Below are positions 1 through 37,664 of a stretch of 64,000 bases of DNA, in pieces. A model generated the notes under the pieces. It saw nothing but the letters and a program-made list of their open reading frames with translations, made no database searches and was not told where the DNA came from. This stretch comes from an uncultured Mycoplasmataceae bacterium (GTDB lineage Bacteria > Bacillota_I > Bacilli_A > Mycoplasmatales > Mycoplasmoidaceae): positions 1 through 64,000 of the forward strand of contig CASDPP010000003.1 in the NCBI GenBank assembly GCA_949282725.1, written 5' to 3'. Position 1 is the first letter of the stretch, and every line of letters begins with the position of its first letter. Made by a program: the position numbers and the translations under genes.

Positions 1-740
1 TAACAATGTCACCTAATGCCAATCCACCAACTGTAACCGAATCATCTTTTCAAAGACCATCTGTGCCTGATATTAATACTTTTGCATTGGGTCCCAAATT
101 TGTAGCTGATGAATATGCTGTATTACTTTGATCAACATTAAATGAAGTAAATTCTGTGTCACCAAAAGCATCATCACCAATACTTGTCAAACTAGATGGA
201 ATAAATAATTCTCCTGTTAGATTTGAACAATTTTGAAAAGCATAAATTCCAATACTTGTTAAACTAGTAGCATTAGATAAATCTAGTGAGGTAATGTTTG
301 TACTATTAAAAGTAGACTCTTCAATATTCGTCATTTTAGATGGAATCACTAATTTTCCTGTTAGATTTGAGCATCTAGCAAAACACCCAAAAAAAAATAC
401 TAGTTAAATTTGTGGCATGAGATAAATCTAGTGAGGTGATGTTTTTTTTATCTGAAAATGAATTTGTACCTATTTGTGTTATGTTTTCATTAATAATGAA
501 ATCACCATCTCCTGATGAATAACCAGTAATAATTGTGGGGTCTGAATCATTTACTGTTACTCAAATATCTCCCATTTGCACAGGTTCAGCATTTAAATTA
601 GTATAGTTATTAAATGAAAAGCAGTTTTCAGTAATAACTTTTTGTGTGTTTTGATATTGTGAATTAAATCCAATTCCTGATAATGGGCTTAATAATGTTA
701 ATGAACTTAATAATTTATTAAATGTTTTTATTTTTTTCAT
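1..740 (-). pseudogene. BspA-like LRR surface protein (copy 1), frameshifted and cut by window edge
   Basis: The start at 740 gives the family signal peptide (MKKIKTFNKLLSSLTLLSPL), a QMGDIWVTV segment and the first LRR_5 repeats. The frame is then lost in a T9 tract (389-397 on the plus strand) and meets TAG at 375-377. The LRR frame resumes one register away (RCSNLTGKLVIPS) and runs through the TNLGPNAKVLISG module to the left window edge with TGA read as Trp. Removing one T (T8) restores a continuous frame. It is therefore either a pseudogene or a phase-off allele. The product would be an exported leucine-rich-repeat surface protein; the C-terminal anchor lies outside the window. The promoter has a T17 spacer. 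Confidence 0.8.
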
Positions 741-763
741 AATTTTATTTAATTTATATGAAC

Positions 764-793
764 ATTATAACAAAAAAAAAAAAAAAAACGCAA
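764..793 (-). promoter_or_regulatory. Promoter of BspA copy 1 with T17 spacer
   Basis: On the minus strand TTGCGT (788-793) is followed by the rest of a T17 run (772-788) and TATAAT (764-769), a spacer of 18 nt. The start codon is 23 nt downstream and no Shine-Dalgarno sequence is visible. Confidence 0.6.
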
Positions 794-799
794 GGGGTA

Positions 800-828
800 G
801 TAAAAAAATAGGTTTTTTCCTATTTTTA
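800..828 (-). terminator. Rho-independent terminator after BspA copy 2
   Basis: The 9-bp stem AAAAATAGG/CCTATTTTT (804-827) with an A6 loop on the minus strand runs into a T tail just downstream of the stop of copy 2 and just upstream of the promoter of copy 1. Confidence 0.75.
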
Positions 829-831
829 CAA

Positions 832-2019
832 TTATATTTTAACTGTTGTTTTTTTCTTTTTAGTAAAATATCAAATTCCAAATCCTGCAGCTGCTAATAT
901 TGGAATACCTAAACCAAATACCAAACCCAAAATTAAACTTGTATTAGATTTTTTAGGTGTTGGAGTTGGTTCTGGTGGTAAACCAATTTCAATTTGATCT
1001 TCAGTAAAACTAAAGTTTGGTGCTTTTAAATATGCTTGTTTTGTTTGTTCTGATGGAACATACACCTTACCTGTTACTGTAGGGTTTCAATCTCAACCAA
1101 ATGTTGTGGGTGGTGTTTCTGATAAGAAATATAGATTATCTAAAGTAACATTATAAAAAGCATCATTACCAATACTTGTCAAACTAGATGGAATTGTTAA
1201 ATCTCCTGATAGATTTGAACAACCATTAAAAGCATCATTTCCAATAGTGGTTAAGTTTGTAGCTTGTGATAAATCTAATGATGTGATATTTGCTGCAAAA
1301 AAAGCTCATTCAGATATTGAAGTAATGTTGCTTGGTATAACAATATCTCCAAAAGCCAAACTTCCACATGCTTTAGAAATATCTTTTCAATTACTATCTG
1401 ATCCTGAAACTAACACTTTGGCATTAGGTCCTAAGTTAGTTACTAATGAGAAGTTTTTGTTACTTTCTGGTGTTGATACAAAATTTTTAAGATAATTACA
1501 ATAAGTAAAAGCATACTCTCCAATAGAAGTTAAGTTTGTAGCTTGAGATAAATCTAGTGAGGTAATATCTGTTAAATAAAAAACATGATTTCCAATATTT
1601 GTCACACTAGATGGAATCATAATATTTCCTGTTAATTCTTTGTGTCGATCAAAAGCATTATTTGCAATAATTTTTAATTTTGTTGCATTAGAAAAATCTA
1701 CTGATGTGATATTAACGCCTGAATTAAAAGCATAATCACCAATTTCATCAACATCATCACTTACTATTAATGCTCCAGCTCCACTTTCTGAAACATAACC
1801 AGTGATTTTTCGATAACCTGTTTCTGTATCTGTTTCTACTGTAACTTTTACATCTCCCATTTGTTCTTCTGATGGTTCGATAGCATTAAGATAATTTTTT
1901 GTATTTTCAGAAACTATACGTTGAACATTTTGATATTGATTATTAAATCCGATTCCTGATAATGGACTTAATAATGTTAATGAACTTAATAATTTATTAA
2001 TTGTTTTGATTTTTTTCAT
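832..2019 (-). CDS. BspA-like LRR surface protein (copy 2)
   Basis: This is a 395-residue exported protein. It has the family signal peptide (MKKIKTINKLLSSLTLLSPL), an EQMGDVKVTVE segment, several 23-residue LRR_5 repeats of the form SLDLSQATNLTSIG..AF, a conserved TNLGPNAKVLVSG module, then ETPPTTFGW and VYVPSEQ. A Pro-rich linker (PPEPTPTPKKSN) precedes one C-terminal membrane helix and KKKKTTVKI. TGA codes Trp at several conserved places. BspA-type LRR proteins are surface adhesins in other bacteria; a role in binding host or neighbouring cells is inferred. The neighbour upstream is the divergent lspA operon. Confidence 0.88.
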
Positions 2020-4490: not shown

Positions 4491-5909
4491 TTCCTAAATT
4501 TACAATAATTTTATCTTCAGAAATACCAAAATATTCTTGGTTTAAAAGTTGTTGTTTAACACTTTCTGATTTAACATATATTTTTCCTGAAAAATCGTGT
4601 CATATTCAATTTTTACCTACTTGCGGAGCAATAGTTCCTAAGAAATAAATATCATTAAATCCTTGAGCTGTTCAAAATACTCGACTTTCAATTGTACTAA
4701 CTCAACTTGGAATTTTAATATCTTAACTTCCGCTTGTAGCTTTAAAATTATAAAAAGCTCCTTCAGAAATATGTACTAAATTTGTTGCATTAGATAAATC
4801 TAATGATAGCGCTTTAACATAAGCAAAAGATCAACTATCAATTCTTTGAATGTTTGTTGTTATAGTTATGTTTTGTGATGTGTTAACGTCTTGGAAAGAT
4901 TGTGAAGGAATAGTTGATAATTGTGTTGCTTTAGATAAATCTATTTTTCCTATTGAAGAAGATGATAATTTTCCATAATTATGAAAAGCATTATTACCTA
5001 ATGTATTTAAAGATGAAGGTAAAACTATATCACCTGTTGCATTTTCACAATATGAAAAAGCCTCTGTACCAATATATGATACTGAATCAGGTAAAGTTAT
5101 TGATCCACTAATACCACTTAAACCAGCAAAAGTTTGTTCACCAATTTTAGTTAAATTTTGTGCTAATGTAAAATCAAGACTAATAATTTGCTTATTTAAA
5201 TGAAATATATTATTGTCAATAATTCTTACATTTTCACCAAAAACTACTTTATATTTAAATGTAGTTGGAAAAGCATTATTAATTGAATTAAATGATGAGT
5301 CTATGTGTTCAAAATTAAATTTAATTGATTTTACATTTGTTAAGTTTTGATCAGTAAAAGAATTGTTTATAAATCCTGAAACAAGTAAATTATCATGTTT
5401 TGAAGAAATTTCAATTTCTGCTGGATATTGTTTATCTGAAAGACCACCAATTAAATATGTATTATCTGTTGTTTTTTCAAAATTAAATGATTCATCTTGA
5501 GATAAAAAATGAACTTCGATAGGAGTGTTTGATTTATATGTTAATTTTGGATTTTGTTTTGAAGTTGCTGTTCAATAGAAATTAAAAAGTGAACCTGCTG
5601 GTACTTGACTTTCAACGCCATTAATTACTATTTGGTTTTGCGAATTCACTTTAATTCATTCTGGACCTTTTTCCCCTGATTTTAAACTGAAAATTACTCA
5701 AGTTCATCTTCTATTTTTTCTTCATCAAAATATAATTTAAAAGAATCTTTTGTTGTATAATTAGCGTTTGCCAAAAGATCAATGTGATTTTCAGGAGCTA
5801 TAACCTCAAACTCATCTTTCTTAGAACATGATGTAACTGCAGTAATTGCTGGAATAGAAATAGCAGGTAATGCTAATAATTTTAATAACGATCTTAATTT
5901 AAGTTTTAT
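4483..5909 (-). pseudogene. Decayed BspA-like LRR lipoprotein
   Basis: The minus-strand translation begins KLKLRSLLKLLALPAIS followed by a lipobox-like AVTSC, so it was a lipoprotein rather than a TM-anchored copy. It continues with LRR_5 repeats (SLDFTLAQNLTKIG, KIDLSKATQLSTIP, SLDLSNATNLVHIS) and ends GKIYVKSESVKQQ without the C-terminal membrane helix. Three lesions are visible. The start codon is ATA (5907-5909) where the related lipoprotein at 17359 has ATG. There is a frameshift near 5695-5705. An in-frame TAA interrupts KATSGS/DIKIPSW near 4720. No homopolymer promoter is present; a -10 (TATAAT) lies upstream. It is probably non-functional. Confidence 0.75.
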
Positions 5910-6450: not shown

Positions 6451-7683
6451 TTAACTGTTATTTTTTTTCTTTTTAGTAAAATATCAAATTCCAAATCCAA
6501 CAGCTGCTAATATTGGAATGCCTAAACCAAATACTAAACCTAAAATTAATTCTGTGTTTGATTTTTTTGGAGATGGTTCAGGTGGCAAGCCAATTTCTAT
6601 TTGATCTTCGTTAAAAGTAAAATATTGTGCAGAAGTATATTTGCTTTTAGCTTGTTCTGATGGAACATATACTTTACCTGTTATTGTCGGTTGTCAATTT
6701 TCTCCAAATGTTGGTGGTGTTTCAGACAAGAAAGCTAAATTATTTATTTGAACATTTTGAAATGCAAATTGATCAATCGTTGTAATTGTTTTTGATATTA
6801 TTATGTTTCCTCTTAGATGTTCACAATGTCAAAAAGCTTGTCGTCCAATAGTAGTTAAACTTGTGGCTTGAGATAAATCTAGTGAGGTAATGTTTGAAGT
6901 TCAAAAAGCTTGTTCTGCAATACTTGTTATACTAGATGGAATAACTAGTTTTCCTAAAGCTAATGAACCAACACACTTAGAATTATCTTTTCATATTCCA
7001 TCTGTTCCAGCTAATACAACGCAAGCATCAGGACCTAAATTTGTTGTTAGACAGAAATTTTGATTTGAAGAATCAACTAATATTTGTGTAAAATGAGCTC
7101 CAAAACAAAAAGCACGATCACCAATATTTGACAAATTAGATGGAATTACTAAATCTCCTGTTAGATTTGAGCAATTAGAAAAAGCATTATCTCCAATAGA
7201 AGTTAAACTTGTAGCTTTAGATAAATCTAATGAGGTAATGTTTGTTGTAGTGTAAAAAGCTTGTTGTCCAATACTTGTTACACTAGATGGAATAACCAAA
7301 TCTCCTGTTAGGTTTGAACAACAAGCAAAAGACATATAATCAATCTTTGTTAAACTAGTGGCTTTTGATAAATCTAGTGAATGAATATTATTATTTTCAT
7401 AAAAGGATTCAGCACCTATCAAAGTAATATCTGAATCTACCTTTAATGTTCCTGATCCTGCAGCATAGCTTGTAATTTGTGTCCCACTAACGTTGACTGT
7501 AACATCACCCATTTTTCTTTGTTCGTTCGTTTGATTTACAACATAATTAGTTAATGAATTATTACTACTTTTTGTAATAACATTTTGTGTATTTTGATAT
7601 TGATTGTTAAACCCAACTCCAGATAAAGGACTTAATAATGTTAATGAACTTAATAATTTATTTAATGTTTTGATTTTTTTCAT
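6451..7683 (-). CDS. BspA-like LRR surface protein (copy 3)
   Basis: 410 residues. It has the family signal peptide, RKMGDVTVNV, a run of LRR_5 repeats (SLDLSKATSLTSIG, SLDLSQATSLTTIG), a TNLGPDACVVLAG module, ETPPTFGENW, VYVPSEQ, the linker PPEPSPKKSN, a C-terminal membrane helix and KKKKNNS. The tail differs from copies 2, 8 and 10 (KKKKTTVKI type) because an A tract is one base longer. It sits between tmRNA and copy 4, all on the minus strand, with its own homopolymer promoter. Confidence 0.88.
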
Positions 7684-7704
7684 ATTCTTTTGATTTACAT
7701 AAAT

Positions 7705-7735
7705 ATTTTAACAAAAAAAAAAAAAAAAAACGCAA
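7705..7735 (-). promoter_or_regulatory. Promoter of BspA copy 3 with T18 spacer
   Basis: TTGCGT (7730-7735), T18 (7713-7730) and the -10 box TAAAAT (7705-7710) give a 19-nt spacer on the minus strand. Confidence 0.6.
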
Positions 7736-7746
7736 GTGGTAGTAAA

Positions 7747-7773
7747 AAAATAGGGAAAAACCCTATTTTTTTA
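7747..7773 (-). terminator. Terminator after BspA copy 4
   Basis: A perfect hairpin AAAAATAGGG/CCCTATTTTT with an A-rich loop and T tail lies on the minus strand between the stop of copy 4 and the promoter of copy 3. Confidence 0.75.
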
Positions 7774-7781
7774 ACTATATT

Positions 7782-9020
7782 TTAACTGTTGTTTTTTTTC
7801 TTTTTAGTAAAATATCAAATTCCAAATCCAACAGCTGCTAATATTGGAATGCCTAAACCGAATACTAAACCTAGAATTAGTCCTGTATTTGAATTTGAAC
7901 TGACTAGTACTCAAGATGAATCAAAACCAAAATTTTCTGTAAGTAAATACGCTTGTTTTACTTCTTCTGATGGAACATATATTTTTCCAGTAAATTCATC
8001 TTTTGTTACAAATCAATCAATATTAAATGTTGGTGGTGTTTCAGATGTAAAATAAATATTATTATCAAGTTTAGAAAAAGGTAGTATTTTTTTTGGAATA
8101 TTTTCAATTAATTTTGGGAAAACAATATCACCAATAATATCAAAATTAATTTTACTACTTGATGTAAAAATACAATCACCTAATGTTAATTTTTTTGTTA
8201 AATTTCTAAAATCTAACTTGATTCCATTATCAAAATCTTTTACATCCAAAAAAGCATTACCTTTGATTTCTTGTAAATTTTTCATTATAGAAAAATCCAA
8301 GTTTTTTATTTTTGCTGCAGAAGAAAAAGCATATTGACCAATGATTTCAATTGATGATGCTTTTGAAAAATCAAAAGAATTTATATTTGCTTTTGAAAAT
8401 GCAAAATCACTTATAATTTTTAAATTATCAGGAAACATTACATCTCCATATGCTAATCCCTGAAAAAACGTTGAATCATCAGTTCATAAACTATCTGGAT
8501 TATTTACTAATATTTTATTATTAGGACCTAAATTCGTTGCCAATGAAAAGTGTTGATTACCTTCAGCAACTTCTATAGATTGAAAAATTCAAGAATTAAA
8601 AGCACCAAAACCAATTGAAGAAAGCTTTTCAGGAATAAAAATTTCACTTGATTCTTTTCCAGCACTATCAAAAGCACCATCACCAATGGTTGTTAAACTT
8701 GTAGCTTTAGAAAAATCTATTGATGAAATTTGAGTTCTTCCATTAAAGGCATTATTTGATATTTTGGTAATATTAGAAGCAACTTCTAATGTGCCTTCTC
8801 CTGATGAATATCCTGTAATAATAGTAGGATCCGATTCATCTACTGTTACTCAAATTTCACCCATTTTTACTGGTTCAGCATTTGAATTAGCATAGTTATT
8901 AAATGAAAAGCAGTTTTCAGTAATAACTTTTTGTACGCTTTGATATTGATTGTTAAATCCAATACCTGCTAAAGGACTTAATAATGTTAATGAATTTAAT
9001 ATTTTATTAATTTTTTTCAT
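7782..9020 (-). CDS. BspA-like LRR surface protein (copy 4)
   Basis: 412 residues. The start gives MKKINKILNSLTLLSPLAG, a variant of the family signal peptide lacking the second KT. Then come VKMGEIWVTVDE, LRR_5 repeats, TNLGPNNKILVNN and TPPTFNID. The C-terminal linker lacks the PPEP(T/S)PKK motif of most copies and reads SSWVLVSSNSNTG before the membrane helix and KKKKNNS. The amino half is close to copy 1 (shared SDPTIITGYSSG), the carboxy helix close to copy 3, which suggests segment exchange. The promoter has a T16 spacer. Confidence 0.87.
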
Positions 9021-13076: not shown

Positions 13077-14243
13077 TTAACAGTTGTTTTTTTTCTTTTT
13101 AGTGAAATACCAAATCCCAAATCCTGTAACTGCTAAAATGATAGGAATACCTAAACCAAATACTAGACCTAAAATTAATCCTATATTTGATTTTTTTGGA
13201 GATGGTTCAGGTGGCAAGCCAATTTCTACTTGATTGGTTTTGAAACCAAAATTTGATGCATTTAAATATGCTTGTTTTGCTACTTCAGATGGAACATAAA
13301 CCTTACCTGTTACTGTTGGGTTTCATTTGTATTGAATTGTTGTTGGTGGTGTTTCTGATAAAAAAATCAAATTTTTAACTGTTGTTTCAGAAAAACAATA
13401 ATTTTTTAAAGTTGTAATATTAGCAGGAATCATTAAATCGCAATCAAGATTGTTACATGATGCAAACGAATTACTTTCAATAGTTGTTAAATTTGTGGCT
13501 TTTTCAAATTCTTTAATAGTTTTAATAGATGAATTTCTAAATGCATTTACATTTATGGTTTCAAGATTTGAAGCATTAGAAAAATCTATTGATGTAATTT
13601 TTGATCCATAAAATGCACTATGTGCGATTGATGAAACGGTGTCTGGGATAACAATATCACCAAAAGCCAAATCTCCAATAGGTAATGAATTATCAATTCA
13701 TTTTTTATCTGTTCCAGAAATTAGCACTTGTGCATTAGGTCCTAAATTATCAGGTATTGAAAAATACTGATTTTTCTCATTCAATGTAAATGATGAAATT
13801 TTCGTTCCCCCGAATACTTCTACACCAATTGATTTAATTTTTTCATTAATAATTATTGATCCTGATAAATTTATACAATCTAAAAAACTTGCTTCACCAA
13901 TAGTAGTTAAACTTGTAGCATTAGATAAATCTAATGAAGTAATCTTTTGATTTTGTTCAAATGCATTAGTTGCAATTTCTGTAACATAATCTAAAACTTC
14001 TAAAACCCCTTCACCTGATGAATATGACTGAATGATTTTACCTGTTTCGTCTAAATTAACATAAATATCCCCCATTTTTACTGGTTCTAAATTTGATGAT
14101 AAATAATCATTTATTGAATAAGAATTTTCTATAATATTTTTTTGAGGACTTTGATGTTGGCTGTTATTAAAACCTATTCCAATCAACGGACTTAATAACA
14201 TAAATGAACTTAATAATTTATTGATTGTTTTAATTTTTTTCAT
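13077..14243 (-). CDS. BspA-like LRR surface protein (copy 5)
   Basis: 388 residues. Signal peptide MKKIKTINKLLSSFMLLSPL, VKMGDIYVNLDE, LRR_5 repeats (SLDLSNATSLTTIG), DNLGPNAQVLISGTD module, ETPPTTIQY, VYVPSEVAKQ, linker PPEPSPKKSN, a C-terminal helix and KKKKNNC. Unlike copies 1-4 and 9 its promoter has no homopolymer; instead TTTAGA-17-TATAAT with a short inverted repeat (AGACT/AGTCT) in the spacer. It lies between dnaK and the rpsF operon. Confidence 0.87.

Positions 14244-14301: not shown

Positions 14302-14308
<7 letters not shown>
14285..14308 (-). terminator. Terminator of dnaK
   Basis: AAAATAGGG/CCCTATTTT, loop of 6 nt. The dnaK stop codon TAG is part of the 5' arm. Confidence 0.75.
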
Positions 14309-16115
<1,807 letters not shown>

Positions 16116-16148
16116 GTATTAGTGCTAATTTTATTTTAGTTAATAAAA

Positions 16149-16195: not shown

Positions 16196-17359
16196 TTATA
16201 AATAAGAAAGAATAGAATATGTATTTTTACTATAGTAAATTTCTCAAGGTAAAATTCCTGGTAAGTCAACTAAGTATTTTTCAGAATATAAATTAATATC
16301 AATTCCTTGAGTCATATAAGCATATCATGCTAATTCTGAACAGTATCAAGAAGAAGCATCAGATTTGTAATCTGTTTTAGGGAATAATGGTAAATAATAG
16401 TCTTTGTTTAGTTGTTCAAAACATTTTTGTACTACGTTATTTCTAATAGTTTCAGAAACATCTGATCCATCATTGTTTTTAACTCTTAAGATATCCATTT
16501 TATCAGAATCCATACGAGTATCATCAATTAATCCGTATGAAACACCAAATTGGTTAGCTTCAATAACTCTTAAGTAATCAATACCGTTAGTGTCTTTATA
16601 TCAACCATCAACAATACCAATATGACCTGTCATATCGAAAAATCCTGTTGATGAAAACATAATATCTCCAGACTTAATGTTAGAGTAATCATATTTTTCA
16701 TATTTAGGAGTTTGTGTTAATGTAATTTTAGTATCTGAAATATGTTCTCCGTTTGCATGGTTAAATGCTAAACCAGTATAATATGTATCAGCATATACAT
16801 TTCAAATTAATGATCATGCTTGTTCTTTACTCATCAATCTATATAAAGTAGCTTCAAAAACTCTTTTTAAATTTAACATGTGGTTTGTAAAGAAAACTTT
16901 AAGTTGTGTATATGATTGATCATTAAAAATATCCATCATTTCATCATGAAATCATTGAATATTTTCTTGAGAAACAAAAACGTTTAATGCTTTTGAACTA
17001 CAAATTTCATCAATTACAGGAATGAAAAAATCTTTATGTGATACTAAAAACATTTGAAATACACATACTGGGTCAAAGTCATAATATGTTTTAGATTCCA
17101 CACTCGGAACTCAAACATCATAATTTGCAGTAATGTCATTTATTATGTTTTCTTCAATAAATTCTTTACCTAATGTTTTTTCAGTTATCTCATTTAAATT
17201 AGTGAAGAAACTTTTAAAATTATGAATGTATTCAGTACTAATAATTACATCGTTTTCTTTGTTTACTTTTTTTGTAACTGAACATGAAGTTAACATCGGC
17301 GTAATAGATGCTGCACAAATAGGTAAGAACGATAATTTAAATAAATTTTTTAGTTTCAT
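16196..17359 (-). CDS. Lipoprotein with YiiX-like permuted papain/NlpC-P60 fold (predicted)
   Basis: 387 residues. The lipoprotein signal peptide ends in the lipobox PMLTSC with Cys26. The C-terminal half holds SGDIMFSSTGFFDMTGHIGIV (here split: SGDIMF and TGHIGIV) with His246, and SWYCSELAW with Cys340. The order GD...H...C is the circularly permuted arrangement of YiiX/YaeF-type cysteine peptidases or amidases. Mollicutes lack peptidoglycan, so the substrate may be a host or bacterial peptide or acyl-lipid amide. Eight or more TGA codons encode Trp. The identification rests on motif order only. Confidence 0.65.
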
Positions 17360-17409: not shown

Positions 17410-17481
17410 CTAAAAAAACAATTTTTTTGAATATAATTAATTTATACAATAAATTAATTATATTTTTAATTTTATAAAAGT

Positions 17482-17487
17482 ATTATA
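17482..17487 (+). promoter_or_regulatory. -10 box of the Cys-rich peptide gene
   Basis: A TATTATAATA segment 12-20 nt before the ATG contains TATAAT; the -35 region is a T-rich stretch. Confidence 0.45.
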
Positions 17488-17499
17488 ATATATAGTAAT

Positions 17500-17607
17500 A
17501 TGAAAGCAAAAAGTAAAAAAAGTTGTGATTGTGATGTTTCATGCAAATGCGGGTGTCAAACTAAAAAAACAACAAAAACTACAACTAAAAAATGTAAATG
17601 CAAATAA
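17500..17607 (+). CDS. 35-residue Cys/Lys-rich metallothionein-like peptide
   Basis: A small open frame with seven cysteines in 35 residues arranged C-x-C-x3-C-x-C-x-C and, at the end, C-x-C (SCDCDVSCKCGC ... KCKCK). The rest is almost only Lys and Thr. The density of CxC pairs resembles metallothioneins and suggests a soluble metal(I/II)-binding peptide; no family is recognised. A -10 box precedes it and a perfect terminator begins at the stop codon, so it looks like a complete monocistronic gene. No TGA. Confidence 0.7.
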   Translation: MKAKSKKSCDCDVSCKCGCQTKKTTKTTTKKCKCK

Positions 17608-17630
17608 GATAGTGTTTCTATCTTATTTTT
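17606..17630 (+). terminator. Terminator of the Cys-rich peptide gene
   Basis: AAGATAG/CTATCTT stem (17606-17624) followed by ATTTTTTAT. The 5' arm starts within the stop codon. On the other strand it reads into the end of the lipoprotein gene at 17630. Confidence 0.85.
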
Positions 17631-18337
17631 TATCCCTGATATGTTAATTTAAAATAACTTCCGTTATTTATTAAATTTTCGTGATTTATTGAATAGTTAT
17701 TAACACCTGTTAATGATGTTTTTATAATCCCAAAAACAATACTGTTATTAGGATAGTATGGTTTTCATTGATATGGCAATTCAGAACCATAATAATTTTG
17801 TTCAGATGGCAAATAAGATGAGTTATTAGAAATAAAATGATTTTGTTCAAATTCAATAATAAATTCAATTCAATCGTCTTTTTTAGCATCTAAATAGTCT
17901 TTTTTGTAATTTATCATTACATATCCTGAAAAATTAACATAAAATGAACTTTGGTCTTCATTTAATTTAACTATTGCATTTTTACTTATCTGACCATCTA
18001 AACCAATAATATTTTCATCATATAAATCTAACAATGATTTTTCTTGTCCGCTAAAATGTTTTGCCCCGATGTATAAATCATTTTGTTTTAAGATACTAAA
18101 TGAGTCATAAATTAATTCATTTTTTACTAAATCAGGTTCATTTTTAACATTTTCTAGTAAATAATTATTAAATCCTGTGTATGTAAAATCTTGTGATTGA
18201 TAAACTCCTAAATCATGATTGGATTTTAGGATATTAATGATTCTAGCATTTTCACTATCTGATGAACATGAGTTTATATTAAATAATATGAAAGATGATA
18301 AAAATGCAAAAAAGATAAAACTTAAATATTTTTTCAC
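17630..18337 (-). CDS. Putative lipoprotein of unknown function
   Basis: 235 residues from a GTG start. The signal peptide is strongly hydrophobic and ends INSC (Cys24), a lipobox, so LspA processing and surface display are expected. The mature part is polar and rich in Asn, Tyr and Ser with no recognisable domain; GYVMINYKK and aromatic-rich blocks suggest a beta structure. One or more TGA codons encode Trp. It is convergent with the Cys-rich peptide gene. Confidence 0.75.
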
Positions 18338-18406: not shown

Positions 18407-19444
18407 TTAAATTAAATCTAATAAAATAGTATTTAATAAATTAAAATTTTTACACTTAATATTTTTTTTGTTAATCAAAAGCAATTTTTTATTTAATTTA
18501 TCTTTATAAAAATCGTATGTTTCTTTATGATCTTTATTATTTAAATTTAACCCATATTTAGTTCTTAGAGCCATCATAAGCGTTTGAAAATAAAGATCTT
18601 TTTTATTATTCCAAATAAGTGTTTTTTTTCAATTTAATAAACTACCTGATATTTTATAGTATTTTTTTCTTTCAAATCCAAAAGCTCCATATCCAATTCC
18701 TATTCATTCTTTACTATTTCAATAACCTAAATTGTGTTTTGATTCATATTTTTTATTCATTGATCAATTACTTATTTCGTAGTGATTATATTTAGACATT
18801 TTTTTATTAATGTATTCACATTGATCTTGAATTAATTCATCATTTAATTGATATTTGTTTTTAGTTATTTCTGATTTATCTTTTAATTCAAGACTATAAA
18901 AAGAAACATGTTTTATTTTATTACTTAAAATAAATGTAATTTCTTTATCAATAATTTTATTTGTTAATTCATTAAAACCATAAATAAAATCTAAACTTAT
19001 GTTTTTTGTCGTGTATTTATTAAATATCTTAATTGCTTTTTTAACATCTTTTGTTGTATGATGTCGCTTGTATTTTTTTAATATTTGATCATCTAGTACT
19101 TGAGCACCAAGTGAAATTCGATTAACATGAAATTTTTTAAATTCTAGTGCTTGTTCTTTCGTTACAAATTCTGGATTACATTCAATAGTTAATTCTGTTT
19201 TATTATGAATGTTTGATTGAATGCTTTGTAACAAACGATATATTTCGTTTGTTGAATTAGGAGTTCCACCACCAAGATAAATTGTATCAAATTTAATATT
19301 TTTATATTTTTTTAGTTTCTTAATTAAATAATCAAAATATTTTGTGATAGTTTTATCATCCTTAACAAATCTCACAAAATCACAATAAGAACATAAGTGT
19401 TTACAAAATGGAATATGAATATATAAATGTTTTACTTGATTCAT
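18407..19444 (-). CDS. hemW: HemW-like radical SAM protein (oxygen-independent coproporphyrinogen oxidase paralog)
   Basis: 345 residues. N-terminal YIHIPFCKHLCSYCDF contains the CxxxCxxC iron-sulfur/SAM motif; YLGGGTPN, IECNPEFVT and RISLGAQVLDD are family blocks. HemW is a heme-binding protein rather than a coproporphyrinogen oxidase, and mollicutes have no heme pathway, so an unassigned radical-SAM or heme-trafficking role is likely. Its start overlaps the miaA end by 13 nt. The C-terminal third is diverged and contains many TGA Trp codons. Confidence 0.85.
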
Positions 19445-21349: not shown

Positions 21350-22885
21350 CTATTTAACTTTTTTCTTATTTTTAATAGTTTTAATAGCAAAATATGAACC
21401 TACTAAAATTACTGGTAAACCAATTGCTAATGTTAAACCAATAATTAAACCTGTGTTTGATTGGTCGCTAGAATTAGATACTTTAATTGTTATTGTTTCT
21501 GAAGTTTGTTTAACAGTTTCATTTAAATTAGTAGCAATTTTAAATGTATAAGTTCCTGGGTTAATGTGATTTCAGAAAATAGTACCAGCACTAAAAAATA
21601 AACCTTCAGGAGCTTTTTTTGTTTCACCTTGAGGAATAAAGTATCAAGTAGCAGCATTAGATAAGCTTTCTGGTGTACATCCTGTTAAAACAAATAATTT
21701 ATCAGAATTACCAATATCGTTGCAAGATATGTTTATTGTATCGAATGCGTTTTCAACTAATGGTTGAATTTCTGAAGAAGCAGAATTATATGTTCATTCT
21801 TGAGTTCTACCTGATTCAAAACCAAAGTTTGCAGCTGATAAATATTGATTAGATCTTCCTTGTGGAAGATAAACTGTTCCATTAAGTGATGATGGATTAA
21901 TTCAATTTGCACCAAATGTAAAATTAGAAGAAGTTGCAGTTGTATTAGTAAAAATTAAGTTTTCTAAAGCTACATCTTTAAATACATTTGGTCCAATTTC
22001 AGTTAATGATTTAGGGAATGTTAAGTTACCTGTTAATTGACTACATCCCATAAAACAACTATCTCTTAAAGCTGTTAAAGAAAAAGCTTGAGTTAAATCT
22101 AAATATTGAATAGGGGTATATGCAAAAGCACCACCTTTAATTCATTGAATATTAGAACCAATAATAACAGAAGTAACACTTGAACCACGGAATGTGTTAT
22201 CATCAACATTAGTTAGTCCTGTAGCATGAGTGAAATCTACTGATTTAATATTAGTGTTTTGAAATGCAAAACTTGATAATGCAGTTAATGTATCAGGTAG
22301 AATAATATCACCGAATGCAAAATTTCCTACACGATATGATACATCTTTATAAATACCATCTGCTGAGTCAATCAAAACTAATGCATCTGGACCTAAATTT
22401 GTTGCTTTAGAATATGCTTTGTTTTCTGAAGCAACTCTAAGAGAAGTGAATTTTGTGTCTCTAAATACACCTAATTCAGAAATATCTGTTAAGTCTTTTG
22501 GAATATATAGTTCTCCTGTTAGGTTTGAACAATAACCAAAAGCATAATCATCTATTTTGGTTAATTTCGCAGCATTAGATAAATCTAATGAGGTGATGTT
22601 TTGATTATTTTTAAAAGCATTTTGATCAATTTCAGTTATGTCAGGAGTTATTTTTAATTTCCCTTGTCCTGAAACGTAACTTTTTATTACTGTTCCATCA
22701 ACATTAACAGTAATATCTCCCATTTTAGTTTTAGAATTTGAACCAAAATAATTGTTTAATAAATTATTGTTTTCAGTAATGATTTTTTGTGTGTTTTGAT
22801 ATTGACTATTGAATACAACACCGGTTAATGGAGTTGCTAGTGTCAATGCACTTAATAATTTGTTTAATGTTTTGATTTTTTTCAT
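21350..22885 (-). CDS. BspA-like LRR surface protein with extra beta domain (copy 6)
   Basis: 511 residues. Signal peptide MKKIKTLNKLLSALTLATPL, KMGDITVNVDG, LRR_5 repeats, TNLGPDALVLIDSADG module, then VYLPQGRSNQ. Between the LRR block and the anchor lies an extra domain of about 130 residues ending GTYTFKIATNLNETVKQ, an Ig-like or He_PIG-like beta-sandwich pattern also seen in copies 7 and 10. The anchor helix is diverged (LILVGSYFAIKTIKNKKKVK). It has a conventional promoter and a Shine-Dalgarno (GAGGAA), unlike the homopolymer copies, so expression may be constitutive. Confidence 0.87.
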
Positions 22886-30442: not shown

Positions 30443-32176
30443 TTATTTTTTCTTCTTTTTTAGATATCAAACGCCAAATCCTGCTGCTAAAATAATTGGA
30501 ATACCTAAACCTAATACTAGACCTAAAATTAAACCTGTGTTGATATTGTTATTATTAACATTAATTTTAATTATTTCATCTGAATCTTTATAATCAACTT
30601 CATTAAATTTAGCTCTTATCTTAAATTCATATGATCCGGATGAAACATTATTTCAAAAAATGTTTCCTTTAGAAATATATAATCCATTAGGTACTTCTTT
30701 AGTATCATTTACAGGTACTAATTCTCATGCTGAATAATTAGAGATAACTTCTGGACTGCAGCCTCCATTAAGTGCAAATTGATTTAAAGATTGCCCTACA
30801 TCTGTTTTTATGTCTAATTCTGAAAAATTTCCGCTAATTGTTGATTGTGATGAATCGAACGTTCAACCAATTATTTTTTCATTAGTAACAGAACCTTCAA
30901 TGAAGTGATTTAAAGATTTGTATTCTTGTTCTAAACCACTTTTTACATAAACATTTCCAAAAAGGTTTTTTGGTGCTCAACTATAAGTAGCCATTCCATA
31001 ATCATAAGATGGTGTTGTATTACTAAAAAATATAATATCATTCGCTTGATTACAATAAAAAATAGCATCATGTAATTCCGTTACACTATAAGGAATTACT
31101 AAGTTTGTATTTTGCGAAAATTGATTACAATCAAATATAAAATGTTTAGGGATACTTGTTATATTTGTACAACTAGATAAATCTATTGAAGATATATTTG
31201 ATCTTGAAAATGCATTAGTTAGCTGATTTAAATATGGAGGTAAAATAACATCACCAAATGATAAATCAGTAACACATTTTGAATTATCTTTTCAAATTCC
31301 ATCTGCTACATTTGAACCAGTCATTATCACGTTTGCTTCTGGTCCTAAATTCGTTGCTTTTTTAAAATATTTACATTTATCATAATTTATTTCTGTTACA
31401 TTCGAGTTACTAAAAGCGCCAGAACCTAAATCTTCGATATTTTGAGGTAATATTATTGTTGTTCGCGTATTTTTTGTAAAATTAGCAAAACATTCTGAAC
31501 CTAATGATTTTAATGAATTTAAGTTAGATAAATCTGGTATTTCAATAAGATTTTTACAAGCGCCAAAAGCTTCTGAACCAATACTTGTTAAACTTGTAGC
31601 TTGTGATAAATCAACATTTGTTACATTTGATCAAGTTTTACTATAATAGTTATCAAAAGCACCATTTCCTATTGTTTTTAGTTTTGAATGTATAACTATT
31701 TTATCTTCACCAAAAAAGTTATCATCTTGATACATATATGCAAAACAAGCATCACCTATTGATTCTAAATTTTCTAATTTAGAAAAATTAAGTATTGAAA
31801 CGTTTGCAGAGGAATGGAATATATTTTCACCCAATACTTTCAAATTTTTAGCATTTTGAAAATCTAACATATATCCATCTCCTGTATATCCAAGTGATTG
31901 AATTTCGGTAATATCTGAATCAATTAATAAAGTTTTATCTTTTCCACCACCAGATACATAATTTGTAATCACTGTACCTTCAACAGTTACAGTAACATCT
32001 CCCATTGTTCTTTGTTCTGCATTAGCTTGATTATCAATATAATTAAGTGAATTGTTACTATTTTCTGTAATAACTTTTTGTGTACTTTGATATTGTGAAT
32101 TAAATCCTATTCCTGATAAAGGACTTAATAATGTTAATGAACTTAATAATTTGTTAATTGTTTTGATTTTTTTCAT
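30443..32176 (-). CDS. BspA-like LRR surface protein with extra beta domain (copy 7)
   Basis: 577 residues, the largest copy. Family signal peptide, EQRTMGDVTVTVEG, diverged LRR_5 repeats, TNLGPEANVIMTGSN module, VYVKSGLEQEY, then a beta domain with GLYISKGNIFWNNV and GSYEFKIRAKFNEV, and the anchor helix ending LKKKKK. The homopolymer of other copies is missing: TTGATT and a possible TATAAA lie 17 nt apart (32186-32214), which would place transcription start almost at the ATG. First of four tandem copies at this locus in chromosomal order. Confidence 0.87.
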
Positions 32177-32227
32177 AGCTTGATGTTTATATAAATATTT
32201 TAATATAAAATCAACTGGTAGTAAAAA

Positions 32228-32252
32228 AAAATAGAGAGTTAACCCTATTTTT
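32228..32252 (-). terminator. Hairpin after BspA copy 8
   Basis: AAATAG...CTATTT imperfect stem with T tail on the minus strand, overlapping the end of copy 8. Confidence 0.5.
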
Positions 32253-33632
32253 TTATATTTTAACTATTGTTTTTTTCTTTTTAGTTAAACTTCAAATAAT
32301 AAATCCAAAGGCTAAAATAAGCGGGATTCCCAATCCAATTAATATAGCGATAATAACTGGAATATTATATGAATTATTTTCATTATCTTTTGGAATTCCA
32401 ATATCAATTTGAAAAAAGTGATAACCTAGTTCTCTATTATATGTTTTTTTTGCTTCTAATGAAGGAACATACACTTTATCTTGAATAGTCGGAAGTGAAT
32501 AATTACCAACTTTAGGAGGTGTTTCTGAATAGAAAATAATATTTTTAATTTCAACGTTATAAAAAGTGTAATTTCCAATATTTGTTACACTAGATGGAAT
32601 TACTAAATCCCCTGTTATATTTGAACAACTCATAAAAGCATTATCTCCAATTGTAGTTAGACTTGTAGCTTGTGATAGATCCAGTGATGTAATGTTTGTT
32701 GATTGAAAAGCATTTTCAGCTATAAATGTTATATTATTAGGTAAAATTATCTGACCTCAAGCTAATGATCCTATCGCTTTTGAATTGTTATTTCATGTTT
32801 TTTCTGACCCACTAACTAAGACTTGTGCATCAGGGCCTAAATTCGTTGCCAATGAAAAATATTGATTAGATTTATCAATTGTCAAGGAAGAAATAGAAGT
32901 ATCTTTAAAACATTCATCTCCAATAGTTTGTAGATTTTTCGGAATGTTTAATTTTCCTATTATGTTTTCGCAATATCTAAAAGCTGCATCTCCAATAGTA
33001 GTTAAACTTGTGGCTTGTGATAAATCTAATGAGGTGATATTTGTATATTCAAAAGCCTGATTTCCAATGCTAGTTACTTTGCTAGGGATGACCAAATCTC
33101 CTGTTAAATTTTCACAACTATAAAAAGCATCATATCCAATAGTAGTTAAACTTGTGGCATTAGATAAATCTATTGATCCTACGTTAGAATCATTAAAGGC
33201 ACTGTTTCCGATGGTTGTTACATTAGATGGGATAGTTAAAGAATAAAAAGGTCCTGTGCTTTTTGAAGAACAATTAAAGGCATTATCTCCAATAGTTGTT
33301 AAGCTTGTAGCATTAGATAAATCAACCGAAGAAATATTTGACTGACCTTCGAAAACTGAATTTGAAATTTGAGTTATGTCTGAATCTACTATCAATTTTC
33401 CTTCACCTGACAAAGATACAAATTTAGTAATTATTGTTCCTTCAACTTCAACAGTAACATCTCCCATTGTTCTTTGGTTTGCGTTTAAATTAAAGTATGT
33501 GTTTAAAGTGTTATTATTTTCAGTAATAACTTTTTGTGTGTTTTGATATTGACTGTTAAATCCAACACCTGATAGCGGACTTAATAGTGTTAATGAGCTT
33601 AATATTTTATTGATTGTTTTGATTTTTTTCAT
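32253..33632 (-). CDS. BspA-like LRR surface protein (copy 8)
   Basis: 459 residues. Signal peptide MKKIKTINKILSSLTLLSPL, QRTMGDVTVEVEG, at least eight regular LRR_5 repeats (SLDLSQATSLTTIG..AF..CEN), TNLGPDAQVLVSGSEKTW module, VYVPSLEAKKTY, anchor helix and LTKKKKTIVKI. The linker lacks PPEP and reads IPKDNENNSYN. It begins only 39 nt after the stop of copy 9 with no terminator and no homopolymer promoter between, so it is probably co-transcribed from the T15 promoter of copy 9. Confidence 0.87.
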
Positions 33633-33671
33633 AATTTTATTTATTTTTTATTTTTATATTTTATTTGTTTT

Positions 33672-35363
33672 CTATATTTTTTTTGTTGTTTTTTTCTTTT
33701 TAAAGAAAAATCATAATATGAATAATATACATAACAGAAGTGGAATACCTAGACACACTGATAATACAATTATTAAAATTGAATTTGACTTTGACGTAGG
33801 GATAGGTTTAGCATCAACAAATATTTGATTTTCTGTAAACCCAAAGTTTTCTTCAGATAAATACATTAATTTAGATTCTTCAGATAATAAATGTACTTTG
33901 CCTGTTATATTTGGTTTCCAATTAACTCCAAATGATGGAGATGCGTCTGATAAAAAGAACAAGTTATCTAAAGTTGTATTTTTAAACACAAAAGAACCCA
34001 AAGATTCGATGGAATTTAAAAAATAAATGTCACCTGTTAGGTTTGAACAATTAGCAAAAGCACTATCACCGATTTCAATCAAATTTGATTTTGATTGAAA
34101 TTTAACTGATCTTATTTTTGTGTTTTCAAATGCATTTGGCAGAATTGTTCATGTTGAAGGTTTGTCAGAGCTTCCTTCTATGTTTTTAAAATCTATATCA
34201 CCAAAAGCAAATGGAGTAACAATTTGATTATTTAACTCATAATCTCATTGACCGCTTTTGTTTTTTAATAACACGTGGGCATTAGAACCTAGATTTGTTG
34301 CTGAAGAGAAGTTTTGATTGTTTGAATCTATTTTAAAAGATGTTAAGTTTGTATTCAAAAAAGATGTATTACTTATATAAGAAAGATTTGCAGGAATTTG
34401 TAATTGTCCTGATAGATTTTTACAACCGCTAAAAGCATAATCTTTAATTGTTGTTAAACTTGTGGCTTGAGATAAATCTAATGAGGTAATTTTTGCACAA
34501 TTTGCAAAAGCATTATTGCTAATAAAAGTTATATTTTTGGGAAAAACAATATCACCTGCGGCAAATCCTGAAATACTTTTTGAATCATCTTTTCAAAGAC
34601 CATCTGTCCCCGAAATTAAAACGTAAGCATCAGGACCTAAATTTGTGGCTAATGAGTATGATGGATTTGATTTATCAACATCAATAGAAGAATATTTAAT
34701 ATCTGATATGGCGTTTTCACCTAAATCTACTAGAGATCCTGGTATTTTTAATGTATCAATCGATATATTAAAACATCCTGAAAACGCATTATTTCCTAGG
34801 GTAACTAAATTAGAAGGGAGAGGTTCGTCACAAGAAACAAATATACAAAATGAAAAAGCACTATCTCCAATAGTTGTTAAACTTGTAGCATTAGACATGT
34901 CTAATAATGTTATGTTAGTATTACTAAAAGCCCCTCTATTAATTGTTATTAGAGTTGACGGGATTATCAAACTTCCTGTTAGTAAACGACAATTATCAAA
35001 AGCATAATTACCAATTGTAGTTAAACTAGTGGCATTAGATAAATCAATACCTTTAACAACAACTGAATTTCTGAAAGCATATTCAGAAATTTCTGTTATA
35101 TCAGAATCTACTACTAATTTACCTTCACCAGTTGATGACACATAACCTGTAATTTTTGTATCTTCAACAGTAACAACAACATCACCCATGGTTCTTTGTT
35201 CTGCATTAGTTTGATTTCAAACATAATTATTTCATAAATTATTATTGTTTTCTGTAATAACTTTTTGTGTGTTTTGGTATTGATTATTAAATCCTACACC
35301 TGCTAAAGGACTTAATAATGTTAATGAACTTAATAGTTTATTAATTGTTTTGATTTTTTTCAT
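33672..35363 (-). CDS. BspA-like LRR surface protein (copy 9)
   Basis: 563 residues. Family signal peptide, EQRTMGDVVVTVED, LRR_5 repeats, and two TNLGP/TNLGS modules (TNLGPDAYVLISGTDG and TNLGSNAHVLLKNKSG), the only copy with two, which suggests an internal duplication. Then SDASPSFGVNW, VHLLSEESK and an anchor helix with FFKKKKTTKKI. Its promoter has the shortest homopolymer (T15). It would drive copy 8 as well. Confidence 0.87.
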
Positions 35364-35384
35364 ATTTTTGTTATCTATAAAAAT

Positions 35385-35412
35385 ATTTTAACAAAAAAAA
35401 AAAAAAACGCAA
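35385..35412 (-). promoter_or_regulatory. Promoter of BspA copy 9 (and 8) with T15 spacer
   Basis: TTGCGT (35407-35412), T15 (35393-35407) and TAAAAT (35385-35390) give a 16-nt spacer. Confidence 0.6.
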
Positions 35413-35423
35413 GAGGTATAAAA

Positions 35424-35447
35424 AAAATAGGGAAACAACCCTGTTTT
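35424..35447 (-). terminator. Terminator after BspA copy 10
   Basis: AAAACAGGG/CCCTATTTT on the minus strand, one mismatch, followed by T-rich sequence. Confidence 0.6.
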
Positions 35448-35452
35448 ATCTG

Positions 35453-36844
35453 TTATATTTTAACTGTTGTTTTTTTCTTTTTAGTTAAATATCAAATAAT
35501 AAACGCAATTGCTAAAATAACTGGAATTCCTAAGCCAATTAGTAAACCTAAAATTAAAGGAATATTAGATTTTTTAGGGGTTGGCTCAGGTGGAATTGGT
35601 GTATCACCTGTAACATTAATTGTTATTGTTTGATTAGATTCAATTGAATATGTTTCATCTAAATGAGCTTTTATTTTAAATTCGTATTGTCCTTCAGGAA
35701 CATTATCCCAATATATTTTTTTGTCATAAAAATATAATCCATTAGGAATGGTTTGTGTTGATCCTGTAGGTACTAATTCATATGCAAAACAGTTAGCTAA
35801 CCCTTCAACACTTAATCCTCCTGAAACTTGATATTGAGTTTCAATATTTCCCACATCAGTAGTTTTAATATTAATATTATCAAATGATCCATTTATAGAA
35901 GAAGCTGATGAATCAAATGATCATTCTTGAACTCTAGAAGAATCATAACCAAAGTTAGGATCTGCTACTACTGTTTCTTTTGTACCGGGATAAACATAAA
36001 TGTCTCCCTTTATAAACTCCCCTCTTCCTTCTCCTGGATTTGGTTTTCAATTTGAACTAAAAGTTAATGTTGAAGATAAAAAAAACATATCTGTAATGAT
36101 AGGACAAGAGGCTCCTCCATAATAATTATTTTCAAAATAATTCTTTATTGTTTTAATATTAGATGGAAAAATAAAATTACCCTGATTATCGTTTCTTGTA
36201 CAGAAAGAATTTTCACCAATGTTATTTAGTTTTACGGCTTGTGATAAATCAAGGACAACCGACCTCGAACCTTCAAAAGCATAAGAACTGATGGTAGTAA
36301 GATTTTGTGGAAAAGAATCAATTGTTAATTTTGAACAACTTGCAAAAGATCTATCACCTATACTAGTTAAACTTGTAGCTTGAGATAAATCTAATGAGGT
36401 AATATTTATACCCTTAAAAGCACCATCGGCAACAGTAATTACCTTGTTAGGAATAAATAAATTTCCTGTTAGATTTGAACAAAAATAAAAACATTCATCA
36501 TTTATTGTTTTTAAACTTATCGCTTGAGATAAATCTAATGAGGTAATATTTTCATTTTCTTGAAAAGATCTAGCACCAATTTCAGTAATATCAGAATCTA
36601 CTATTAATTTTCCTTCTCCTTTAACATATCCTGTAATTACTGTCCCATCAACAGTAACAGTAATATCCCCCATCGTTCTTTGCTCTTCGTTGGTTTGATT
36701 AAAAAAGTACTTATTTAATGAAGTACTATTTTCAGTAATAACTGTTTGTGTGTTTTGATATTGACTATTAAATCCAATGCTAGTTAATGGACTTAATAAT
36801 GTTAATGAACTTAATAGTTTGTTAATTGTTTTATTTTTTTTCAT
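35453..36844 (-). CDS. BspA-like LRR surface protein with extra beta domain (copy 10)
   Basis: 463 residues. Signal peptide MKKNKTINKLLSSLTLLSPL, EQRTMGDITVTVDG, LRR_5 repeats without the TNLGP module, VYVYPGTKE, then a beta domain (LYFYDKKIYWDNV, GQYEFKIKAHLDETY), linker PPEPTPKKSN, anchor helix and LTKKKKTTVKI. The gene is divergent from ttcA with only 34 nt between start codons; TATAAT close to the ATG serves as -10 and no T run is present. Confidence 0.87.
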
Positions 36845-36878
36845 ATATAGATCATTATAATATATTCAAAATATAATA

Positions 36879-37664
36879 ATGAGAAAATTAGTTGGATCAA
36901 TTATTAGAACAAATAAGATATTTAACTTCATCAAAAATGATGATAAAATACTTGTTGGCGTTTCAGGCGGAAAAGATTCTACATTATTACTTAAAGCTTT
37001 AACACTATATTCACAATATGTTAATCATAAATATGGTTGAAACATAAAAATTTATGGTTTACACATCAAAATGAATTATTATCGTCATATTGATTACACA
37101 GAATTTAAGAAATATTTAAAGCAAAATAAATTAAATGTAAAATTTGTCGAATCAGATATTGGGGATATTTTAAAAGCTAAAGCAAAAAAAGGATTGGTTC
37201 AATGTTCTTTATGTGCTAAATTAAAAAAAGCAATTTTAGTAAAAGAGGCAAAAAAAATAGGAGCTAAAATAATAGCAACTGGTCATCATGCCGATGATGC
37301 AATAGAAACATTGTTTTTAAATATGATTCATGAAGGGAGAATTGCAACTTTTTCTCCTCATATTTATTTCGATCGATCTGACACATATTTAATTAGGCCT
37401 TTTATCTTATTAAGAGAAAAAGATATCATTAAAGAAGCAAAAAAAGAAAAAATTCCAGTAATAGAAAACTCTTGTCCAAGAGAAACTAATACAGAAAGAA
37501 TTTATATTAAAAAATTCTTAGAAACTAATTTCTACAAAAATAAAATATTTAATATGTCTTATAACAATTTTTTAGTTGCTTTATTAAATGGTAAACAATC
37601 AACATTATGATTTGATAATAAATCAAAGAAAAAAGATTTAATTAAAAAGTTAAATGAATTTTAA
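36879..37664 (+). CDS. ttcA: TtcA-family tRNA 2-thiocytidine biosynthesis protein
   Basis: 261 residues. PP-loop VGVSGGKDSTLLLKAL near residues 27-42, CSLC in the middle, ATGHHADDAIETLFLNMIHEGR, and a conserved NSCPRE late block replacing the usual C-terminal Cys region (one Cys). It adenylates C32 of tRNA and inserts sulfur with an iron-sulfur cluster. Two TGA Trp codons. It is convergent with the next gene, 4-nt overlap. Confidence 0.83.

Follow-up and report, generated by a model that had tools for sequence, protein, structure and literature searches.

The seven-cysteine metallothioneins of fungi (fungi-I; Neurospora crassa, Agaricus bisporus) are Ser/Gly-rich, carry their Cys mainly as CxC and contain neither aromatic residues nor His. 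About six Cu(I) are bound by such seven-Cys proteins (PMC13107397). For the bacterial SmtA/BmtA (PF02069), titles cited in PMC7387436 point to His ligands and a zinc-finger-like fold. As a reference for Lys-rich repeats, pentamers have been described in Chlamydia Hc2 and Bordetella BpH1 (PMC2848022), and the Hc2 paper makes no mention of cysteine. Here we analysed a Lys/Cys-rich micropeptide gene of an uncultured Mycoplasmataceae bacterium, located in a stretch of 64,000 nucleotides (contig CASDPP010000003.1, positions 1 to 64,000; hereafter the window), and compared its product with these systems. The open reading frame (ORF) is a genuine, previously unannotated, monocistronic micropeptide gene with positional orthologues. 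Judging from its sequence, we give metal-thiolate binding an even chance of being the main action of the peptide.

The original prediction, a metallothionein-like peptide of 35 residues with seven Cys mostly in CxC, corresponds to a 35-codon ORF at 17500-17607 (+) whose full product is MKAKSKKSCDCDVSCKCGCQTKKTTKTTTKKCKCK. Cys occupy positions 9, 11, 15, 17, 19, 32 and 34. The rest had been described as Lys and Thr, which is loose: Lys is indeed abundant (12 residues, 34%), but Ser, Ala, Gly, two Asp, one Gln and one Val are also present. There is no His and no aromatic residue, and the Val is the sole large hydrophobic apart from the start Met. Cys make up 20% of the peptide against 1.3% of residues in the long frames of the window. 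In 60 simulated windows (first-order Markov) no ORF of 25-100 amino acids (aa) had at least 6 Cys and at least 3 CxC, against one in the real window. A census of 574,895 of the 593,293 bases of the genome (97%) found it to be the only Lys/Cys-rich short ORF, with the exception of ordinary zinc-ribbon-type proteins, one ferredoxin-like protein and spurious frames. The genome is mollicute-like and the window genes read TGA as Trp.

The expression signals claimed for this gene were all recovered. A TATAAT box lies only 10 bp from the ATG and inspection of the sequence upstream of the ATG found no Shine-Dalgarno site; the mRNA is therefore probably leaderless, and transcription would start a few bases from the ATG. 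The hairpin, which begins at the stop codon and overlaps it, has a folding energy of -10.1 kcal/mol (z = -6.3), and none of 200 shuffles was equally stable. An automatic promoter/terminator scan listed neither the -10 box nor this hairpin, and a consensus promoter scan gave no -35 match. Since the genes on both sides are on the opposite strand, the gene is monocistronic.

Relatives were reached by synteny, by first locating homologues of the convergent lipoprotein (17630-18337); six further genomes of the genus carry one. In five of the six (G011, G025, G026, G032 and G035) a short Lys- and CxC-rich ORF of 47-75 aa is convergent to the lipoprotein, and in the sixth (G029) the contig stops within the lipoprotein. 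The slot is defined by convergence to the lipoprotein/hemW pair and by location on the side of dnaK; the window copy occupies it too, so that slot and orientation are the same across six species, window included. The five copies are held by the named records CASPLF010000001, CATDIL010000001, CATAWQ010000003, CAMWQH010000061 and CANEON010000003, reached via dnaK, which belong to uncultured Mycoplasmataceae/Ureaplasma-like genomes; some isolate names suggest that these come from gut and rumen samples. Four of the five peptides diverge from dnaK over about 160-205 bp holding a CIRCE-like element, and in the window and G032 another lipoprotein lies between peptide and dnaK. In the remaining genomes of the genus that were inspected, the region 5′ of dnaK gave no comparable peptide.

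The G026 member is MAAKKTAKKPSKKTTKKAKSAPKKCGKKSCKCGCKSGKKCTCAKKSTKKATKKVAKKPAKKSSKKSRR, and those of G025 and G035 are close to it. The G011 member is a 75-mer with four CKCG units and that of G032 a 66-mer. Shine-Dalgarno sites (AGAAAGGA, AAGGAG) and terminators accompany these relatives. The promoter and ribosome-binding-site block is nearly identical in G011 and G032, and in the G025/G026/G035 terminator stem a double change (GTTAGC/GCTAAC to GTTAGT/ACTAAC) leaves the pairing intact. All six Cys are unchanged in this trio. Its closest pair, G025 and G026, differs by four synonymous and one nonsynonymous changes, numbers too small to test formally. The 47-aa G035 copy (L034:2364-2507, -) is shortened because the frame changes within or close to an A-run, which may be a sequencing error; its Lys-rich tail is still intact in another frame. 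Loss of the CxC pattern in relatives would have spoken against the prediction, and the pattern is kept in the syntenic ones.

Searches by sequence recovered much less. BLAST of the 35-aa peptide against its own genome and 98 relatives gave only itself and one match in G031 (E = 0.07), near, yet distinct from, the G031 member described below. A DNA pattern of the five-Cys core returned otherwise only TG repeats and chance frames in 36 genomes of the genus. Profile searches covering 95 genomes of the family, 320 of the order and 395 of the class gave no member outside the genus; these profiles contained the window copy, whose own E-values there are not independent. A 68-aa relative gave pattern matches in viral and genome contig collections, none confirmed by tblastn, probably because of low-complexity masking, and no member was found in plasmids and phages. 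When a profile built from the five syntenic relatives was used without composition correction, the window copy ranked second of 20,804 ORFs (E 4.9e-7). Its alignment score was reached by 2 of 1000 shuffles with G011, 3 with G031 and 26 with G032, which suggests modest sequence homology to other members. The window copy is thus a family member by position, and its membership from sequence alone is equivocal. Position can reveal a family that escapes BLAST and profile libraries.

Looser relatives occur at other sites in the genus. One is the 52-aa member of G031, PVKKSCGCKKSCCCKKQQKK, flanked by two genes which, from their sequences, we take to be pyrH and frr. The 50-aa member of G017, AKKSCCKCCKKSAKK, extends into the start of a rubrerythrin gene, and at the same position G020 encodes a Lys-rich chain with no Cys; one rubrerythrin-operon copy carries CCKCC and its sister copy lacks Cys. 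Because the rubrerythrin ORFs (L180:1339-2065 and L167:948-1650) overlap the end of the Lys-rich micropeptide gene, this arrangement suggests coupled translation. A 22-aa gene 3′ of the pyruvate kinase gene in JAITHU010000022.1 (L120:9192-9260, -), MGCKCSACCASAKKKCASAKKK, has a strong Shine-Dalgarno site and a hairpin, and is a possible family member only.

We then compared the family with known ones. The original prediction had assigned the peptide to no known family; accordingly, Pfam, NCBIfam, PHROG and PDB gave no match at cut-off for the peptide family. In the broad compositional sense (small, about 15-20% Cys or more as CxC/CC, few or no aromatics), the window peptide falls among the metallothioneins, with 20% Cys, four overlapping CxC and no F, W or Y. 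It resembles the fungal Cu-metallothioneins in being very short, with seven Cys mainly in CxC and no aromatics or His, but differs by its 34% Lys, a 12-residue spacer ahead of the final CxC and the lack of Pfam homology. With SmtA/BmtA and MymT it shares a small size, a Cys-rich composition, a predicted cytosolic location and a bacterial origin, whereas it is shorter, lacks His and a hydrophobic core and matches no profile. No His occurs in the window copy and its syntenic relatives, no PDB relative was found by sequence, and the single His of the G017 and G020 members lies in the part overlapping the rubrerythrin start. Zinc-ribbon ribosomal proteins (L32, L33, L36, S14) of the same genomes are also small, basic and Cys-bearing, but these have CxxC...CxxC knuckles in a folded domain, whereas the window peptide has CxC clusters and no fold-forming residues.

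The longer relatives are closer to Hc2, BpH1 and the histone H1-like family NF038053, with AKK/KKxxKK repeats, Ala/Thr/Pro/Ser spacers, no globular domain and a repeat-dependent size. NF038053 is the best weak NCBIfam match (E 0.098, 12.9 bits against a cut-off of 80). Lys/Ala-rich repeats extend over most of the chain in G011, G017, G020, G025, G026, G031 and G032, but not in the window copy. The family is nonetheless far shorter than these proteins and has a CxC cluster, its scores are below cut-off, and little of the tail is present in the window copy. In working principle the peptide resembles the fungal copper-thioneins and, in the longer copies, Hc2/BpH1, although by these tests it belongs to neither. 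From the sequences, the family would be described as a constant Lys/Ala-rich H1-like chain with a variable CxC cluster of 0 to 8 Cys, and the window peptide as its shortest, most metallothionein-like member. The metallothionein interpretation is thus partly supported: the label 'metallothionein-like' fits the window copy, but the part that stays constant among its relatives is the H1-like chain, which makes metal storage a plausible reading but not the sole one.

The argument for metal-thiolate binding starts from the make-up of the peptide, which is that of a metallothionein because 7 of 35 residues are Cys, mostly in CxC, with no aromatics and almost no hydrophobics. Once translated, the product would be a cytosolic peptide, intrinsically disordered and strongly basic, in which the CxC, CxCxC and CxC thiolates could wrap closed-shell metal ions, Zn2+ or Cu+, the lysines balancing the negative charge of the cluster. 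It might so act as a metallothionein-like metal buffer or reserve, and its lysines may possibly tether it to nucleic acid, as the Lys tails would in the longer relatives. In G000 a motif search covering 97% of the genome, which is not proof of absence, turned up a single P-type ATPase, and this has no CPx metal motif, which is consistent with a need for metal buffering. Pfam near misses were led by metallothionein families (Metallothio_2, PEC and, with the G011 copy, Metallothio_5). Several results nevertheless weigh against this function. The window copy matched none of the Pfam metallothionein families (Metallothio_2, _5, PEC, Pro) at E <= 1, and its relatives all scored below cut-off (best 19.5 bits against 23). 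Cys are partly absent in G032 and wholly in G020 with the Lys-rich chain kept, so that they are not a constant feature. No metal gene adjoins the peptide gene, and according to the profile searches the family occurs in only a few species, all in the same genus. Alignments of the window copy with G026 (96/1000 shuffles) and G017 (480/1000) were not clearly above shuffles. Finally, a leave-one-out profile with composition correction missed the window peptide, and its orthology for this reason rests on position.

This last failure, together with the patchy distribution over several unlinked positions, is what would be expected of independent low-complexity Lys-rich ORFs without conserved function, the window ORF being a relic or a chance expressed frame. 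We find this quite improbable, the least probable of the explanations weighed here, in view of the identical slot and orientation in six species, the near-identical G011/G032 promoter block, the covarying terminators, the mostly synonymous changes of the closest pair and a Cys content far above chance. The chief rival is nucleic-acid binding, which could also be an additional role of the longer members. In this view the Lys/Ala chain of a nucleoid or RNA-binding peptide akin to histone H1 would coat nucleic acid, the Cys, as a Zn site or disulfides, merely folding or cross-linking the chain, and the window copy would be a shortened form. The relatives are Lys-rich throughout, with repeats as in Hc2 and BpH1 (PMC2848022), the G020 member has no Cys, the best of the weak NCBIfam matches is to an H1-like family and the dnaK and pyrH-frr sites are housekeeping-like. 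Yet the window copy, with little tail in its 35 aa, has the top Cys share of the syntenic family, the models stay below cut-off, and Lys-rich segments are common in the lineage (sigma factor, PTS protein), making Lys-richness weak evidence; we hold this rival to be somewhat unlikely. A thiol redox or oxidative-stress peptide, with CxC/CC oxidised instead of other thiols or used as a stress switch, would agree with the CIRCE-containing intergenic region shared with dnaK in four relatives and with the overlap of the G017 and G020 members with rubrerythrin. CIRCE, however, adjoins dnaK and reads as its own operator, the window and G032 peptides are parted from dnaK by another lipoprotein, and the Cys-free G020 copy keeps its position, so that the rubrerythrin link needs no thiols. 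This makes a redox role improbable.

Returning to metal-thiolate binding, if it holds true, a conserved micropeptide of thiolate type would buffer metal at very little cost in cells with genomes of about 0.6-1.3 Mb and, in the genome studied here, no evident heavy-metal efflux ATPase. A limited, non-exhaustive literature search (mycoplasma and metallothionein) showed no mollicute metallothionein among the ten best of 374 matches. A broader proposal, which we consider rather unlikely, is a new class of bacterial micropeptide joining a metallothionein-like thiolate cluster to an H1-like Lys chain, metal- or redox-responsive and nucleic-acid-bound, in minimal mollicute genomes, with gain, loss and shuffling of the Cys cluster inside a single genus. 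How such peptides originate from basic low-complexity tails could be learned from the mixed Lys/Cys design.

The features of the locus are collected in the table below. The arms of the inverted repeat consist of A and T only and cover the -35 zone in the region that separates the peptide promoter from the divergent promoter of the C92 lipoprotein. Arms of at least 14 bp arose in 5 of 2000 local simulations, and the repeat is single-copy in the genome stretch searched; from its sequence and location it could be a candidate operator. Control of the peptide by CIRCE was also considered and judged unproven, the element abutting dnaK.

Features of the micropeptide locus in the window
Feature	Coordinates	Strand	Basis
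Lys/Cys-rich micropeptide gene, 35 aa	17500..17607	+	ORF call; composition unique in genome; positional orthologues
TATAAT -10 box, 10 nt 5′ of ATG	17484..17489	+	read from sequence
Intrinsic terminator hairpin overlapping stop codon of peptide	about 17602..17628	+	folding energy against shuffles
Perfect 16-bp inverted repeat, AATATAATTAATTTAT-ACA-mirror	17430..17464	.	local simulation; single copy
Lipoprotein without Pfam match, convergent to peptide; synteny marker	17630..18337	-	homologues in six relatives, five beside peptide
hemW-like radical SAM gene; synteny marker	18407..19444	-	Pfam Radical_SAM; order same in relatives
Lipoprotein with Peptidase_C92 (YaeF/YiiX papain-like amidase) domain	16196..17359	-	between dnaK and peptide in window genome
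dnaK; divergent neighbour of peptide in relatives	14302..16050	-	ORF and synteny
CIRCE (HrcA operator) 5′ of dnaK	16102..16128	+	2 mismatches, 0.03 expected

The C92 lipoprotein is not in the slot at L034-L036 and L038, and in G032 the slot between dnaK and the peptide is occupied by a lipoprotein different from that of the window; this slot may be an insertion hot spot. Outside the family, the primary sigma factor of G000 (C3 about 143120-144000; L222:19120-19998) carries at its N terminus a Lys-rich extension of about 75 residues that is H1-like, and a phosphotransferase system (PTS)-type protein (L199:5095-6825) has Lys-rich linkers. Also, about ten long BspA/LRR_5-type ORFs are dispersed in the window (375-2019, 4723-5649, 6451-9020, 13077-14243, 21350-22885, 30443-37045), LRR_5 being confirmed in the one BspA-like ORF checked. 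These share the signal peptide MKKIKT(L/I)NKLLSSLTLLSPLSGIGFN and similar C-terminal anchors, and are likely to be variable surface proteins.
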